Virus record (IMG/VR): IMGVR_UViG_3300027867_000003 | Span: 1 to 64,000 of that record | Source: a virus | DNA: 64,000 nucleotides | Strand: one strand, 5' to 3' | Notes under the pieces: model-generated | Seen by the model: the letters and a program-made list of their open reading frames with translations, nothing else | Database searches by the model: none | What the model was told of the DNA's origin: nothing | Part shown: one piece after another, positions 2,837-58,327 of the stretch | How the letters are laid out: each line of letters opens with the position of its first letter | Position numbering within the stretch: the stretch's first letter is position 1 | Program-made: the position numbers and the translations under genes

Positions 2837-4387
2837 TTATTCAAAAGTTGCTCCGACTAAGGCGACAGGGAATTTATCAGCAGAAGATAATTCGAATATC
2901 CGATCATAGCCTTTGGCCATCCTGAGACTTCCGAGACGGTTGAATTTAACTCGGCGAGCGGTCTGACCTACAGGACCGCAGGATTGAATTAACTGAGGCC
3001 CCCAAGTATAACCCCCGTCATCAGACCATCGAAGTGCAACGTTCGGTGGGGAGGAATTCAGGGGCAAATTTGTCGTTCCGATACCGCCCGTTTCCATATC
3101 GATCATCAGATAATTGAATCTTAGGAGCCGCCCCGTTGGGGGTTGCTGAATCGCTCGCCAACTCCGAAGCCAGGCCCGAGTATTTCCGTTGTCGTCGAAG
3201 GTATTTAGATTATAGTAATAGATATTCCCGTTGCGATAATCACCGACCAAACTAAGACCTGCAAAGCTGGCAGCGCAATTACCCCAATGTCGATGAGGAA
3301 GGCCGTCCGTGGAGGAATAGGCGGCCCTTTGATGCCACATAGGAACCCCAGCCATTTGGCTCACAGTGTCATCGTAGACCCACGTTTGATCCCCACTTGG
3401 AGATGAGAGGACATAAAATTGATGCCCCTCTTGTTGGTAACAATATCCTATAGCATCTGACGGGTTGGGCCACGCCTGAATTTGTCGCTCTATCGCGTGA
3501 GTCGATATCCTCTGATAGGAATATTGAATCAACTTAACCACAATTCCCTCGCCCTGGGCATTCTGTGCGAGCATGAAAAACGTTTCACCTGACCGCCTCA
3601 CCGAGCCGGGAGCCAAGCATCCAACTTCCATATGTGGCCCAACCTCTCGGCCGAATGTAAAATTGGGTGTTCCATTATTGTTCCAGACCTCTGTATTTCT
3701 TTGTTTCATTACAAAGATTTCATTACGAGTCGAGATCATTTTGACTATTGGATCTGGCTCAACTGACGCTTGGGCGAACTGAAGAGTGGGCCAATTAGTG
3801 AAATCGACTTCATTCGACTGAAATAGATTATAAGTTCCGGGCTGATTTATGAGTCCAAAGCCGTCGTTCTGAACGATGCTCATTCCGACGAAAATTGCCA
3901 AATCAACCCCATTATCTTCCATTGTGACGAACGTGTCGGAGTTCGTCGGTGTGAAGGGCAGGTTGGCAATAGAAAACCCCGGAACTACAGTTCCTTTGGA
4001 ATATAAATACCCTCCTGGACCGCCGATCCCTGTAGCTGAGATCATAGTTACGTTGAAATTTTGATCGACAGAATATAGGCCGTTCCCGCTTACGACATAG
4101 AGCAGTTGTTGCGGAATTAGGGATGTCCCGGTGGCTCCTGAGCTTAAGGTCGCAATATGCATCTCCCGAATGGGGCCAGTTCCGATGGTGAGAAGGGATG
4201 TTAGTCCGGGGGCTCCATAGAGTGCCCCAATTTCCTTTCCGGTATGCGTTTCGACAATTTCGGGATAAACGTTAATTGCCTGTTGATCGGCCAATCGGCC
4301 CGAACGGGACATATAGGCTGGGCCGAAGATCGGCGACTTAATCGGAAGGGGTTGGTTTTGTTGGCCTAGCATATTCTGTTTAGCCAC
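2837..4387 (-). CDS. P22 gp10-like packaged-DNA stabilisation protein
   Basis: 516 aa, close to the P22 gp10 length (about 470). The N-terminus shows the family pattern: SRSGRLADQQAINVYPEIVE, then GALYGAPGL, with later beta-propeller-like repeats including DGGYTWGPQL. In P22-like phages this protein forms the hexameric plug region that seals the portal after packaging and receives the tail. Two gp4-like genes lie upstream in the same operon, as expected for head completion. The family assignment is from memory of the motif and gene order. Confidence 0.82.
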   Translation of the reverse strand: MAKQNMLGQQNQPLPIKSPIFGPAYMSRSGRLADQQAINVYPEIVETHTGKEIGALYGAPGLTSLLTIGTGPIREMHIATLSSGATGTSLIPQQLLYVVSGNGLYSVDQNFNVTMISATGIGGPGGYLYSKGTVVPGFSIANLPFTPTNSDTFVTMEDNGVDLAIFVGMSIVQNDGFGLINQPGTYNLFQSNEVDFTNWPTLQFAQASVEPDPIVKMISTRNEIFVMKQRNTEVWNNNGTPNFTFGREVGPHMEVGCLAPGSVRRSGETFFMLAQNAQGEGIVVKLIQYSYQRISTHAIERQIQAWPNPSDAIGYCYQQEGHQFYVLSSPSGDQTWVYDDTVSQMAGVPMWHQRAAYSSTDGLPHRHWGNCAASFAGLSLVGDYRNGNIYYYNLNTFDDNGNTRAWLRSWRAIQQPPTGRLLRFNYLMIDMETGGIGTTNLPLNSSPPNVALRWSDDGGYTWGPQLIQSCGPVGQTARRVKFNRLGSLRMAKGYDRIFELSSADKFPVALVGATFE

Positions 4388-53174: not shown

Positions 53175-54518
53175 ATGAAGGTCGTTATAGTCGGCGAAGC
53201 CTGGGGGAGGCATGAAGAACAGATGTCCCATGCCCTCGTAGGACCCTCGGGTCGCGAATTGACCCTCGAACTCGGTATCTCCGGCCTCGCCCCCTTCATG
53301 CAAATTCAATGTCATGAATGCAAAGAGATGGTCGACTTCACCGACGGCACCTGCGATAATTGCAAAAGTCGCATCTGGCCCAATGAATTCCATCTTCTCG
53401 ACTATTGGAAGAAACTGCGAACCGAACATGGTATTGCCGTCACCAACGTCTTCAACCGAAGGCCGTTTGCCCTTTATAATTTCCCCGACATCGGCTGGTC
53501 AACTTGCAAGATCATCGAAGATCGCGGAAAGTTTAGCAAAATTAAGCGCCTCTCCGACGACACCGAGCACACCGTCATCACAAAATCTGTCATCCAGAAT
53601 GACCTCGGTGGCTTCTTTTCTCCCGAGAGACAGACCCCGATGCCCCCGTGGAAAGCATCAAAGATAGTCAGCGGAACACACCTAAAGCGCGAGTTCTTCC
53701 ATCACGTCGAGAGCCTATGGACGGAAATCCGCGACCTCGACCCGACATTGATCCTCTGTCTCGGCAACGCCGCCTGCTGGGCCATCCTAGGTCAGACAAA
53801 AATCACCGCCCTCCGCGGCACAGTTTCTATGAGTGCGAAGGACCTGACAGGATTTGAGAAGAAATGCCTCGCAACTTTTCATCCTGCCGCCGTCCTTCGC
53901 GCCCCTCCCATGCGAGCGAGCGTCATTCCCGACCTGACGAAGGCCAAACGCGAAGCCGAGTTCCCCGAAATACGACGCCCCGAACGATGGCTGACAATCC
54001 CGAGTCCCAACGAGGCCGGAATAAAAGAAGGCTATGAATGGTTAAAACGACCGACTCAATCGTATTCCTGCGACATCGAAACAATCAAACGTCAAATATC
54101 TATCATCGGTTTTGGAAGATCCCCCTCAGATGCCCTGGTTATCCCCTTTAGGGATGCAAACGTCGATAACCAAGGTCATATCGTCGATGTCGGAAAGATC
54201 GCCACTGATCTCGGATTCCCTTCAACCAATATAAATTATTGGCCCACTCCGGAACTAGAATTCGAAGCCTGGAAACTCGCTATAGCAGCCCTCCAATCAG
54301 ACAAAGAGAAGATATTCCAAAACGGTATATATGATTTATCTTATATGGTCGGAATGGGCATATTTCCAAAGAACATCGCCCACGATACGATGTTGTGGCA
54401 TCATAGTCGATTCATTGAACTACCTAAGAGCTTAGGATTTTTAGGCTCTATATACTGTAATGAAATTTCGTGGAAACAGATGTCCCGACACAGCAACTCT
54501 CTAAAAAGAGACGAATAA
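53175..54518 (+). CDS. uracil-DNA glycosylase-like / 3'-5' exonuclease protein
   Basis: 447 aa from ATG 53175. Residues 1-270 are a UDG-superfamily domain: VGEAWGRHEEQ, ALVGPSGREL, TNVFNRRP, LGNAACWAILG and TFHPAAVLR, with an inserted zinc ribbon (CHECKEMVDFTDGTCDNC). Residues about 285-440 are a DnaQ-like exonuclease with motif I DIET and motif II QNGIYDLSYM, then HDTMLWHH and LPKSLGFLGS. The third exonuclease motif is encoded in the next frame. In related phages these domains are fused to the polymerase. Confidence 0.78.
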   Translation: MKVVIVGEAWGRHEEQMSHALVGPSGRELTLELGISGLAPFMQIQCHECKEMVDFTDGTCDNCKSRIWPNEFHLLDYWKKLRTEHGIAVTNVFNRRPFALYNFPDIGWSTCKIIEDRGKFSKIKRLSDDTEHTVITKSVIQNDLGGFFSPERQTPMPPWKASKIVSGTHLKREFFHHVESLWTEIRDLDPTLILCLGNAACWAILGQTKITALRGTVSMSAKDLTGFEKKCLATFHPAAVLRAPPMRASVIPDLTKAKREAEFPEIRRPERWLTIPSPNEAGIKEGYEWLKRPTQSYSCDIETIKRQISIIGFGRSPSDALVIPFRDANVDNQGHIVDVGKIATDLGFPSTNINYWPTPELEFEAWKLAIAALQSDKEKIFQNGIYDLSYMVGMGIFPKNIAHDTMLWHHSRFIELPKSLGFLGSIYCNEISWKQMSRHSNSLKRDE

Positions 54519-54520
54519 CC

Positions 54521-55999
54521 ATGCCAACAATAGCGTTCCACGAGATCGAAATTAATAAAGCCAATCAGGCCATATATTGCGGCGGGGACAATTTTCTCAC
54601 CAAAGAGATAGACCAAGTCAGGCAGAATTTGCGAGACAATGACACTCTCATATATGATCTTGAGCGAGCCCTGCAAGGCCCCGTCCTAGAACTAATGCTC
54701 CGAGGCTTCCGCGTCGACATAGACGAACGCGATAAGGCCATAGAGCTAGTCACACAGAAGCGAGCCTCAGTCGAGAAAATCCTCTCCGCCATCATAACAG
54801 CGATCCAGGGTTCCTATGATCCCAAGTTCCCCCGATCAGACAAACAACTGCGAACTCTGTTCTACGATCATATGAGGCTAATTCCAATTGAAAAGCACAT
54901 AAACGGTGAGACCAAGAGACCAATGGACAGAGAGACATTGGAGAAACTCGAACTCCAAGATAAGTGGGCCGCCCCCATCATCAATGCAATTCTCCAGTTT
55001 CGCGATCATTCGAAGTCCCTCGAAGTCCTCGAAAAGGAAATCGACTCCGATTTCCGCTGGCGATGCTCATATAATATCGGAGGGACAAATACGGGTCGTT
55101 TTAGTAGTTCCAAATCCCCCTTTGGAACAGCCAGTAATTTTCAAAATATTCATGAGGACCTTAGACGGGTCTTCATCCCCGATTCGGGATATAAGCTCTA
55201 TGGCATCGATAAGGCCCAGAGCGAATCTCACGACGTCGCCTGGTTCTGCGGTACAATTTTAGGCGACTGGACCTATCTCGACGCCTGCCAATCAGGCGAC
55301 TTACATACCTTCGTAACCCGCATGTGCTATCCTGATTGGGCCTGGACCGGAGACCTTAGAAAGGACCGTGCTTTAGCTGAACGTCGTTTTTATCGTCTCT
55401 TCACCTATCGTGACGTCTCAAAGCGCGTCGGCCATGCTACGAACTACCTTGGAACTCCCAAAGAGATTTCTCGACAAACTCGGCTACCCCAGAATATTGC
55501 TGAGGAATTCCAAGAACGCTATTTCACCGCCTTCCCGTGCATCCCGCAGATGCACCAATGGATTTCTCAAGAACTTCAACGCCACAGATTCTTAGTCAAT
55601 TCCTTCGGTCGCAGGAGAGACTTCTTCGACCGTCCAGATAGCCGCGAGACACTGAAATCGGCTGTCGCCTATATGTTTCAATCAGCGACCGCAGACGCCT
55701 TGAATTTGGGTATGTACCGTCTTTGGAAGAACATGAGAAGCAAAGTCCAACTCCTCTCCCAGCTTCACGATGCCGTTTACTTCCAAGCCCCCATCACGGA
55801 CGAAGAATCCGAAAGAACCCTAATCCGTGAATGCGTCAATTGGGTTCAGATCACCCAGAGAGATCCGAAATCAGGTCGCTCTATGACCATCCCAGGAGAG
55901 CCGGTCGGCGGCTTCAATTGGGCCCACCGATTTAGAATCCGAGAAGACGGCACGAAGGAAGAATGGAACAAACATGGCCTAGACTCAATTAGGATCTAA
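54521..55999 (+). CDS. DNA polymerase, family A, polymerase part
   Basis: 492 aa from ATG 54521; the frame is open from 54470, overlapping the previous gene by 49 bases in -1. It begins with the missing exonuclease motif (AIYCGGDNFLTKEI) and carries polymerase motif A (LYGIDKAQSESHDVAW), motif B (SKRVGHATNYLGTP) and motif C (SQLHDAVY, HDA instead of HDE). It should be the replicative polymerase, acting with or fused to the preceding protein. CTAAAAAG in the overlap could allow a -1 slip. Confidence 0.8.
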   Translation: MPTIAFHEIEINKANQAIYCGGDNFLTKEIDQVRQNLRDNDTLIYDLERALQGPVLELMLRGFRVDIDERDKAIELVTQKRASVEKILSAIITAIQGSYDPKFPRSDKQLRTLFYDHMRLIPIEKHINGETKRPMDRETLEKLELQDKWAAPIINAILQFRDHSKSLEVLEKEIDSDFRWRCSYNIGGTNTGRFSSSKSPFGTASNFQNIHEDLRRVFIPDSGYKLYGIDKAQSESHDVAWFCGTILGDWTYLDACQSGDLHTFVTRMCYPDWAWTGDLRKDRALAERRFYRLFTYRDVSKRVGHATNYLGTPKEISRQTRLPQNIAEEFQERYFTAFPCIPQMHQWISQELQRHRFLVNSFGRRRDFFDRPDSRETLKSAVAYMFQSATADALNLGMYRLWKNMRSKVQLLSQLHDAVYFQAPITDEESERTLIRECVNWVQITQRDPKSGRSMTIPGEPVGGFNWAHRFRIREDGTKEEWNKHGLDSIRI

Positions 56000-56003
56000 A
56001 GAA

Positions 56004-56390
56004 ATGGAAATCGTAGAACCCGGTCACTGGTTTAAGCTGAACAACTATTCCGGGATTTCAGAGAGCACAACTTTGTCGAAATCTCAATTAGTTTTCATGC
56101 ATAGAGTTGGTGACAATTACCCAGGAAACCACGGCTATCCGTATGATGGGACAAATTGTCAGGAAGTCCTAAGAGCCTTGATTCACCGTTGCATTTACTT
56201 AAATGGTCAGATTCCTTGCCGAGAAACAGAGAACATAATCGAGAATCTTCGTTATAGTCTAATCTTGTTCGAAGAAAGAGCAGCTAGGGTTCACGGACTA
56301 AAACTCCCCCCAAATCTTCCAAAAGATATAGAAAATACACCAACTTGCCGCCAGTGCGGTCATATAGTATGTAATCACAAGAAATTCTGA
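56004..56390 (+). CDS. conserved phage protein with PGN...GT..QEVLRALI motif
   Basis: 128 aa. LVFMHRVGDNYPGNHG, DGTNCQEVLRALIHRCIYL and the C-terminal CRQCGHIVCNH match a family of small phage proteins of unknown function; the C-terminal cysteines probably bind zinc. Starts four bases after the polymerase stop. Confidence 0.68.
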   Translation: MEIVEPGHWFKLNNYSGISESTTLSKSQLVFMHRVGDNYPGNHGYPYDGTNCQEVLRALIHRCIYLNGQIPCRETENIIENLRYSLILFEERAARVHGLKLPPNLPKDIENTPTCRQCGHIVCNHKKF

Positions 56391-56417: not shown

Positions 56418-56597
56418 ATGCCTTCTGACTGGATCACCGACTTTGTGGCATCCACAGAGACCATGCGAAGCCCGGATTCATTTCGCCTTTGGGGCGGCAT
56501 CGCCACAATTGCCGCCGTTCTCGAACGCCGCGTATGGACGGAGACCGACGTCGACAAACTGAAGAGGTTAGGAAAATGTCTAGAAAAAGGTGTATAA
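56418..56597 (+). pseudogene. orphaned 5' end of the P-loop ATPase gene
   Basis: 59 codons; the first 48 (MPSDWITDFVASTETM then RSPDSFRLWGGI and VLERRVWTETDVDKL) align with the start of the intact gene at 57119, 34 of 47 residues identical. After DKL the frame runs into HNH element DNA and stops. GC-rich phage codon use, unlike the replacement copy. This is the original start, cut off by the insertion; it may still be translated as a short peptide. Confidence 0.8.
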
Positions 56598-57360
56598 TCT
56601 GCGGTAATCCCGTTCATGGGAATGGGCTGTGCTCGAAACACTATCAGCGCCAACGCTTTCATGGAGACCCAAATATAATCTTAACTGTTCAAAATAAGGG
56701 GCTATTATGTAGCATTGAAGCTTGCAAAAAATCAGCTTTCACGAAAGGATTCTGCCGACAACACTACGACTCTATCACGGTATACGGCCGGGTCGACTTA
56801 ATAAGACGAGAAAAAGGAACAGGATCTATACATAGCGGCTACGTTTTCATAACTGTAAATGGAGAACAGGTCAGAGAGCACATATATTTAGCTGAAAAAG
56901 CATTAGGAAGAAAATTACCAGAAGGGGCGGTTGTCCATCACATGAATGAAGACGGAACCGACAATCATACTCCATTCAATTTAGTAATCTGTCCAGATAG
57001 AGCCTATCATAACCTACTTCATACCAGAATGCGGCAACTAAGTGGAGTCCCAGCTGTACGACGCAGAAAATCTATTACTGAACATGCTATAGACATTGAT
57101 CTATAGACCACTTTCTAGATGTCAGACTGGATAGAATCTTTTATGGATTCAACTTCCTCCCTTAGGAGTCCCGACTCATTCCGACTGTGGACCGGAATAA
57201 GCATATTAGCGTCTGTTCTAGAACGACGAGTATGGACAGAAACAGATATAGATAAACTGCACCCTAATTTGTATGTTGTACTGGCTGGAGGTCCAGCCAG
57301 CGGAAAAACTAACATGATAAAGAGATCCAGAGCCATGCTAGCTCCAATTAAAGGACTATT
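56564..57360 (+). mobile_element. HNH insertion with recoded target 5' end
   Basis: AT-rich block inserted after codon DKL of the original ATPase gene. It consists of the HNH gene, a short spacer and a new, AT-rich copy of the first about 80 codons of the ATPase gene. Around 57355-57365 the base composition returns to phage style. The left boundary is the codon after CTG at 56559-56561; the right boundary is approximate. Confidence 0.7.
56576..57106 (+). CDS. HNH homing endonuclease with C-terminal AIDIDL
   Basis: 176 aa from ATG 56576 (AGG just upstream). Two zinc-binding repeats (CIICGNPVHGNGLCSKHY, then CSIEACKKSAFTKGFCRQHY), a GYVFITVNG strand, and the HNH core AVVHHMNEDGTDNHTPFNLV. AT-rich. 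Ends TEHAIDIDL, the phage tag written with different codons (GCTATAGACATTGATCTA). It interrupts the ATPase gene start. Confidence 0.85.
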   Translation: MSRKRCIICGNPVHGNGLCSKHYQRQRFHGDPNIILTVQNKGLLCSIEACKKSAFTKGFCRQHYDSITVYGRVDLIRREKGTGSIHSGYVFITVNGEQVREHIYLAEKALGRKLPEGAVVHHMNEDGTDNHTPFNLVICPDRAYHNLLHTRMRQLSGVPAVRRRKSITEHAIDIDL

Positions 57361-58327
57361 CCTCGGTCCCGACGCCCCAACAAAAGCCTCGTTCATCGAC
57401 TCTCTCGAAGCCTCCGCCAAAGTCAGTACCAACGGCAGCGGGATGACCATCTTCTCTGCTATGACCGTTCTCTGCGAAGAATTCGGCGTCTTGATTCCGA
57501 AATACGACGACAGTTTCCTCGCAACCCTCAGCAAACTCTATGACAACGGCCCCATTCACACAGAGCCTCGGCGATCCGTCAAAAGCTCCCGGATCGAGAA
57601 CCCCACAGTCAATATCCTCGCCGCCGCCACCCCAGCAGCGTTATCGACTTTTCCCGAGGCCGCCTGGGGTGAGGGATTCACCAGCCGCGTCGTCTTTGTC
57701 TACGGAACCACTCCCGAAGTATATCGCGACATGTTCGCCAAGAGACCCGAGTCCGACATAGAGAGCCTTCAGAAGGAACTCGATCGCCTCTTCAACGAAC
57801 TCCACGGTCCATTTGAATGGGAAGACGAGGCCCAAGACGCCATCAGACATTGGTTCAACGACGAGAAACTGGCCCCCACCCCAACCTATGGACGGTTGGT
57901 CAATTATCTTGGCCGCCGAAACGAACACACGATGAAGTTATCTATGATCTCCGCGGTCTCTGCGGGCAACGGCCTCACCGTGACATTGAGCGACTTTCTC
58001 CGAGGCCGCCAGTGGCTCCTAGACGCGGAGGAAATGATGCCGGATGTCTTTAGAGCGATGAAACAGAAATCAGATACTCAGCTCATTCAGGACATGCACC
58101 AAGCCATGTGGCAAGAATATGCCAAAATCGCCCGCGACAAACGAGTCGATATGGACGAATCCTGGATGTGGAACTATCTCCGAGAGAAAGTCACCAGTGA
58201 CAAAATCAAAACTATCATCACAGCCGCCGAGAAGTCCGGACTCATTCGCCCATCAGGACTTCTCCCCGGCAAATGGGCACCAGCACCTATTGACCTCGCA
58301 ACCGGCGGAACCAAAGAAAGAACCTAA
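57119..58327 (+). CDS. P-loop ATPase, DUF3987-like (possible replicative helicase)
   Basis: 402 aa. SDWIESFMDSTSSLRSPDSF at the start, Walker A VLAGGPASGKTN, then GPDAPTKASFIDSL, CEEFGVLI and the TPAALSTFPEAAWGEGFTSR block are typical of the phage DUF3987-like ATPases that stand in the place of primase-helicases. The first about 80 codons are AT-rich and come from the HNH element; the rest has phage codon use. It lies between polymerase and the zinc-finger primase-like gene. Confidence 0.75.
   Translation: MSDWIESFMDSTSSLRSPDSFRLWTGISILASVLERRVWTETDIDKLHPNLYVVLAGGPASGKTNMIKRSRAMLAPIKGLFLGPDAPTKASFIDSLEASAKVSTNGSGMTIFSAMTVLCEEFGVLIPKYDDSFLATLSKLYDNGPIHTEPRRSVKSSRIENPTVNILAAATPAALSTFPEAAWGEGFTSRVVFVYGTTPEVYRDMFAKRPESDIESLQKELDRLFNELHGPFEWEDEAQDAIRHWFNDEKLAPTPTYGRLVNYLGRRNEHTMKLSMISAVSAGNGLTVTLSDFLRGRQWLLDAEEMMPDVFRAMKQKSDTQLIQDMHQAMWQEYAKIARDKRVDMDESWMWNYLREKVTSDKIKTIITAAEKSGLIRPSGLLPGKWAPAPIDLATGGTKERT

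Follow-up and report, generated by a model that had tools for sequence, protein, structure and literature searches.

A phage HNH endonuclease gene between two copies of a replication-gene start: a putative homing element that restores its target

Group I introns and inteins that encode homing endonucleases insert in important genes at conserved motifs, and the function of the interrupted gene is kept. The locus considered here raises the question of how a nuclease gene might occupy a comparable position without either device: it shows no splicing, unlike these elements, and the gene appears to be rebuilt by duplicated coding sequence. The locus lies in a window of 64,000 nucleotides (bases 1-64000 of virus record IMGVR_UViG_3300027867_000003, which totals 84,797 bases), where the start of a DUF3987 ATPase gene occurs on both sides of an HNH gene (Table 1). 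The explanation that we prefer, with a probability of about 0.82, is a self-sufficient homing element that inserts in an important gene and brings along a diverged end of that gene, by which the gene is restored.

The doubled start of the DUF3987 gene

The protein read from the upstream start (MPSDWITDF...TDVDKL) loses homology past DKL, while that of the downstream start (MSDWIESF...TDIDKLHPN...) continues into a complete gene (57119-58327) of 402 codons with a frame that is open throughout. When the initial Met and an extra Pro are excluded, the two starts align over 46 codons with 33 identical residues, 22 of them spelled by a different codon; their nucleotide identity is 0.64, and the differences number 12, 7 and 30 at the three codon positions. 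A search of the window's own record recovered the second copy with E=3e-18, so the doubling is not due to chance. The doubled start around the HNH gene is real, as a preliminary description of the locus had stated, down to the end of the upstream copy after DKL; the 34 of 47 identical residues given there are the same alignment with the Met included. As judged from the reading frames, the HNH gene interrupts a replication gene close to its start, and the target gene stays complete. The tail of the upstream frame overlaps the start of the HNH gene, from which a translational coupling may be inferred as a possibility. The count of promoters and terminators at the element was no higher than in shuffled sequences.

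Table 1. Features of the window around the HNH gene
Feature	Position	Strand	Basis
DNA polymerase A gene, upstream context	54470..55999	+	PF00476 E=6e-30
Remnant: putative native DUF3987 5' end, cut after DKL; probable left homology arm	56418..56561	+	GC3, homology to 57122-57259
Read-through tail of the remnant frame up to the stop at 56597; overlaps HNH start	56562..56597	+	sequence/ORFs
HNH endonuclease gene (predicted), ATG at 56576	56576..57106	+	176 aa, HNH_3
Carried diverged copy of codons 1-80, predicted to restore the DUF3987 gene	57119..57358	+	GC3
GGPASGKT of the restored gene, presumably Walker A, within the carried segment	57287..57310	+	sequence
Putative native DUF3987 remainder; probable right homology arm	57359..58327	+	GC3 209/322; DUF3987 E=1.4e-16

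Base composition separates the two copies. The GC3 of the remnant (32/48) is like that of gene codons 81-402 (p=0.87), and that of the carried codons 1-80 (28/80) is like that of the HNH gene (60/176; p=0.89), whereas the carried codons differ both from the rest of their gene (p=1.9e-6) and from the remnant (p=9e-4). Along the restored gene, GC3 per ten codons is 0.4, 0.5, 0.5, 0.2, 0.2, 0.3, 0.5 and 0.2, and then 0.6, 0.8 and 0.8, the AT-rich stretch stopping near 57359. This agrees with the earlier account of an AT-rich HNH gene followed by an AT-rich start of about 80 codons on a GC-rich rest. The drop from rest to start (0.30) exceeds that of all 79 DUF3987 relatives measured, in which start minus rest has a mean of -0.02 (sd 0.068, lowest -0.187). 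Together, the split and the drop suggest that the original gene therefore consisted of the remnant and the rest, and that the HNH gene and codons 1-80 arrived together. The incoming segment would so have replaced native codons ~48-80, including the presumed Walker A motif; P59, G62 and K63 of the restored gene are invariant in the aligned set (A4). Amino-acid identity leaves undecided which copy is native, the remnant being closer to 11 of the 25 closest relatives and the carried copy to 5, with 9 ties (33, 28 and 18, respectively, among all 79); as far as sequence can tell, it is composition that decides. When the 80 residues of the AT-rich start were used to scan for a donor, 8 loci came up at 41-57% identity, none of them close.

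The site is represented by an occupied form, that of the window, and by an empty form, that of 80 relatives with one start; in L001 (58% identity), for instance, a single DUF3987 start immediately follows the polymerase gene. The preliminary description had named two findings that would refute it, namely an AT-rich start in relatives without the HNH gene and an upstream copy that is a separate, conserved gene. Neither was borne out: comparison of the 5' ends of HNH-free relatives revealed the AT-rich drop in 0 of 79, and among the DUF3987 loci from viral contigs 0 of 80 had two starts, and a separate gene is excluded by the cut inside the homologous stretch and the lack of a second copy in the 80 relatives. 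Its proposal of a spare, recoded start fared differently in its two halves. The spare start stands, with its best support in the helicase relatives discussed below, but "recoded" calls for correction, because 13 of the 46 residues differ as well, and the segment is better read as coming from a diverged homologue. That the carried start has lost the cut site, as had also been proposed, is likely, in the absence of cutting data. Neither the DUF3987 loci in viral contigs nor the scan with the carried 80 residues yielded another carrier of the element in the window, and the mobility of this element would rest on analogy with the helicase relatives. A separate observation concerns the interval between the polymerase A gene and the remnant, where a 128-codon ORF (56004-56390) of low GC3 (0.40) has a Cys/His-rich C-terminus and is missing from the equivalent place in L001.

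The HNH protein comprises two Cys/His knuckles and then an HNH_3 domain. Against PF13392 it scores 24.1 bits (E=2.8e-5), slightly below the cut-off of 24.8, and in the genome search its HNH_3 match reaches 26.2 bits, above the cut-off; it also matches PHROG HNH families. HNH_3 scores of its relatives are mostly 29-49 bits, with only 15.3 in L021. By sequence profile the predicted nuclease thus belongs to HNH_3, and no further HNH_3 match occurs in the window's record. In a structural model of modest confidence (mean pLDDT 72, pTM 0.42), elements E119-122, E136-139 and H142-156 would fit a ββα-metal fold. A Foldseek search of the model against the PDB gave nothing at E<=0.001, a profile search of PDB sequences with the HNH protein gave 0 matches, and a scan of the genome collection with the HNH alignment confirmed 0 of 35 stretches. 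Two further candidates were rejected: a group I intron or other known RNA (0 Rfam matches), and an intein or in-frame insert, given that the HNH frame differs from that of the remnant and that the restored gene has a start of its own.

Helicase genes and the extent of the mobile unit

The combination of remnant, HNH gene and carried start is also present at ResIII/DEAD helicase genes in 13 contigs, nine of them distinct (L059=L061, L068=L069 and L089=L090=L092 being counted as one each). A scan with the helicase gave 80 loci, comprising 5 occupied and 71 single-start genes and 4 that were not scored by the motif used. Two pairs of carriers delimit the unit. Nucleotide identity between L075 and L076 is 0.29 upstream, 0.77 in the remnant, 0.99 in both the HNH gene and the carried start, and 0.61-0.73 in the body; the respective values for L071 and L073 are 0.39, 0.77, 0.98, 0.98 and 0.67-0.72. 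Only the HNH gene and the carried start are alike in either pair, and the edges are sharp to the base. The left edge falls within the glycine codons of what we take to be Walker A, at the identical site in all helicase carriers; the right one lies some 8 codons further on, with identity declining after about codon 41-43 in the two pairs. Start identity reached at most 0.91 among the 1014 pairs of HNH-free helicases whose body identity is <0.76. The nearest neighbour of the remnant is a native start or another remnant in 9/9 distinct carriers, and that of the carried start is another carried start in 4/9 and the HNH-free L101 or L158 in 5/9. Comparison of these predicted genes shows that the nuclease gene and the carried start travelled between helicase genes as one unit, and it likewise establishes the edges of the putative unit and the completeness of the gene. 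The nuclease gene and the diverged end of its target gene thus appear as a single mobile unit, with what is left of the native end on one side and the native rest of the gene on the other.

In one group of helicases the remnant reads in frame into the HNH gene, from which we infer that the nuclease may therefore use the helicase's own start signals. The start motif STGGGKT[YC], typical of one group of carried copies, occurs in 6 of the 71 single-start helicases (L098, L100, L101, L102, L158 and L172), with start identities of 0.84-0.97 to the carriers. These six HNH-free genes may be resistant alleles that remained after loss of the HNH gene, or donors. Three helicases (L152, L156 and L159) show a different peculiarity, about 200 extra bases near the 3' end with no HNH gene at the start.

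Other target genes and frequency of the arrangement

Counted by distinct surroundings, 18 nuclease genes at the 5' or the 3' end of a gene are flanked by a duplicate: the window, nine helicase cases, one each at a SNF2 gene, a UDG start, L045, L394 and an ERCC4 gene, and three at a UDG/exonuclease end. Their nucleases belong to the HNH_3, HNH-AP2 and endonuclease-VII-like families, and the closest relatives of the window's HNH protein adjoin neighbouring replication genes of related phages. Gene starts are affected in a UDG-family gene (L031/L032), a SNF2-type helicase (L344) and an untyped gene (L045, HNH_3 by profile with an AP2 part recognized by eye), the last with a duplicate of 17 codons in which 14 residues are the same, 7 of the 14 with another codon. 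At the UDG/exonuclease 3' end (L010, L017 and L021) the last 18-19 codons of the gene are repeated past the HNH gene; this site is shared by six HNH genes (L010, L016, L017, L019, L020 and L021), and the remnant is present in 3/6. Further 3' cases are a polymerase gene (L394, HNH with AP2) and an ERCC4-type gene (the second case in L032), whose nuclease matches endonuclease VII families and where the order of composition is reversed. A weaker case at a polymerase 3' end (L009) has the HNH gene behind the gene, with GC3 of 0.76 in the polA body, 0.36 in its last 40 codons, 0.36 in the HNH gene and 0.79 in the next gene. At four 5' targets the remnant stops at or shortly before a conserved motif, presumably Walker A or the GEAP of UDG. 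Eroded remnants are seen in L286 and L292, and the helicase of the latter, broken by stops, is the sole exception seen to a complete target gene.

Some other loci are recorded here as separate observations. L314 has an exact 49-base direct repeat (2252-2300 and 3029-3077) around an HNH ORF (2450-2881), which is not a diverged coding duplicate like the other cases. In L152 (4643-5677) the start of a nuclease-like gene flanks a PAPS-reductase-like ORF at either end, which might be a decayed case or the same arrangement with a cargo other than an HNH gene. Two HNH genes of the window type lie some 4 kb from each other in one contig (IMGVR_UViG_3300025838_000059; L350 and L371).

In a filtered survey of 6139 unique ORFs from the fetched loci, duplicated flanks were found for 16/221 ORFs with an HNH motif versus 10/5918 without (p=1.8e-17). 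The loci had been chosen for HNH, helicase or DUF3987 genes, and the thresholds were fixed after the first cases had been seen; the out-of-frame rows of L045 and L292 were left out of the comparison of remnant and carried copies. Duplicated flanks other than those of carriers include tandem paralogues, internal zinc-knuckle repeats and reverse-strand readings. The duplicate was found for 0/312 ORFs in 20 loci of named phages (16 HNH loci, L014, L015 and L254-L267, and 4 DUF3987 loci, L005-L008), and the trait is therefore not general to phage HNH genes. It was also missing from most of 82 HNH loci scored, a set affected by the shared helicase target and by low-complexity frames.

Proposed mechanism, alternatives and related systems

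In the proposed mechanism, the HNH protein would cut the gene of a co-infecting phage in which it is uninterrupted, close to a conserved motif of the active site. The carrier would then serve as the template for repair of the break, the remnant being the homology arm on one side and the gene body that on the other. The recipient would thereby acquire the nuclease and lose the stretch surrounding the cut, and the carried end would re-establish the reading frame. Because it is diverged, the carried end should both escape cutting and recombine poorly with the remnant, a recombination that would delete the nuclease. Cutting at the replaced stretch, repair with these arms, immunity of the carried end and its lack of the original target sequence are all inferred, with no data on cutting or homing.

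Plain intronless homing would instead have a free-standing HNH gene arrive by ordinary co-conversion, the doubled end being a by-product of the resolution of recombination. Phages are known to have free-standing homing endonuclease genes (HEGs) next to divergent targets (PMC2988022, available in part), many HNH relatives adjoin genes without a duplicate, and only half of the six insertions at the UDG/exonuclease site have kept a remnant. A by-product is nevertheless hard to reconcile with a left edge common to all helicase carriers and a unit that ends some 8 codons further in two pairs, or with a duplicate that recurs at many genes and at either end next to a complete gene, L292 excepted, and we regard this explanation as unlikely. 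Still more improbable is an origin by tandem duplication, in which the upstream one of two gene copies was truncated and the HNH gene came in between them later. Such a history is suggested by eight loci (L027, L033, L035, L037, L038, L040, L042 and L050) in which an HNH gene lies between or near full-length tandem paralogues, apparently tail-type proteins, but no DUF3987 relative (0/80) has a second copy, the remnants stop at the edge of the nuclease, and the carried ends are common to phages with differing gene bodies. A chimeric contig assembled from two phages can hardly be entertained: although the window belongs to a single virus record and a second assembly was not found, other, independent assemblies show this anatomy too (e.g. 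L068=L069, L059=L061 and L089=L090=L092).

The self-sufficient element that we favour has partial counterparts, described here as far as the available parts of the cited sources allow. Mobile ORFs (mORFs) with foreign C-termini are present in fungal mitochondria (Glomus atp6, atp9, cox2 and nad3, with Allomyces atp6 referred to), where an endonuclease gene and a diverged target end are likewise joined in frame with the native end beyond; the ends differ mostly synonymously, and horizontal transfer was proposed (PMC3630166). This gene-hybrid layout, with a foreign end joined and the native end left beyond the endonuclease, is shared by the window and its relatives; a LAGLIDADG or GIY-YIG enzyme in a mitochondrial genome is not, their nucleases matching HNH profiles and their records being viral. 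The fungal elements are mitochondrial, encode LAGLIDADG or GIY-YIG enzymes and replace C-termini only (PMC3630166), whereas the phage elements are of the HNH type and affect both 5' and 3' ends. The T4 seg and mob genes are similar in being free-standing nucleases without intron or intein that spread with flanking DNA, but they lie beside targets that are cut at a distance of hundreds of bases or more, or they split a gene, as does mobE in Aeh1 nrdA and mobA in T4 gene 60 (PMC2988022). A rebuilt gene end is not described for intronless homing in the available part of that account, in which "duplicat" does not occur, nor do the accessible portions of two other accounts of phage HEGs contain such an arrangement (PMC10448857, PMC2248197); gene fragments produced by selfish elements are treated in PMC8351571. 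A phage description was not found in the literature searched, which mostly did not cover subscription papers. The synthetic HomeR home-and-rescue drive is alike in that the target lies in an essential gene restored by a re-coded end, but it is an engineered split Cas9 system in flies and rebuilds a 3' end only (PMC7968924), whereas the elements in phages occur naturally and rely on a single small nuclease.

We lean slightly towards the wider view that these loci represent a widespread class of natural phage cleave-and-rescue elements that arose several times, with different HNH-type nucleases. Each would be aimed at a block of conserved codons close to either the 5' or the 3' end of a gene for replication or repair, would exploit the native end left behind as a homology arm, and would carry a diverged end that both immunises and restores the gene. 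If so, HNH-free alleles with a carried end would represent the resistance stage of a cycle of gain and loss. The self-sufficient element would add to introns and inteins a third natural solution by which a selfish nuclease resides inside an important phage gene and does not destroy it. Its design is close to that of synthetic home-and-rescue drives, and it would thus offer natural sequences for studying the spread of drives, resistance alleles and loss. More generally, the starts and ends of phage genes can be foreign patches, by which annotation and phylogeny may be misled.
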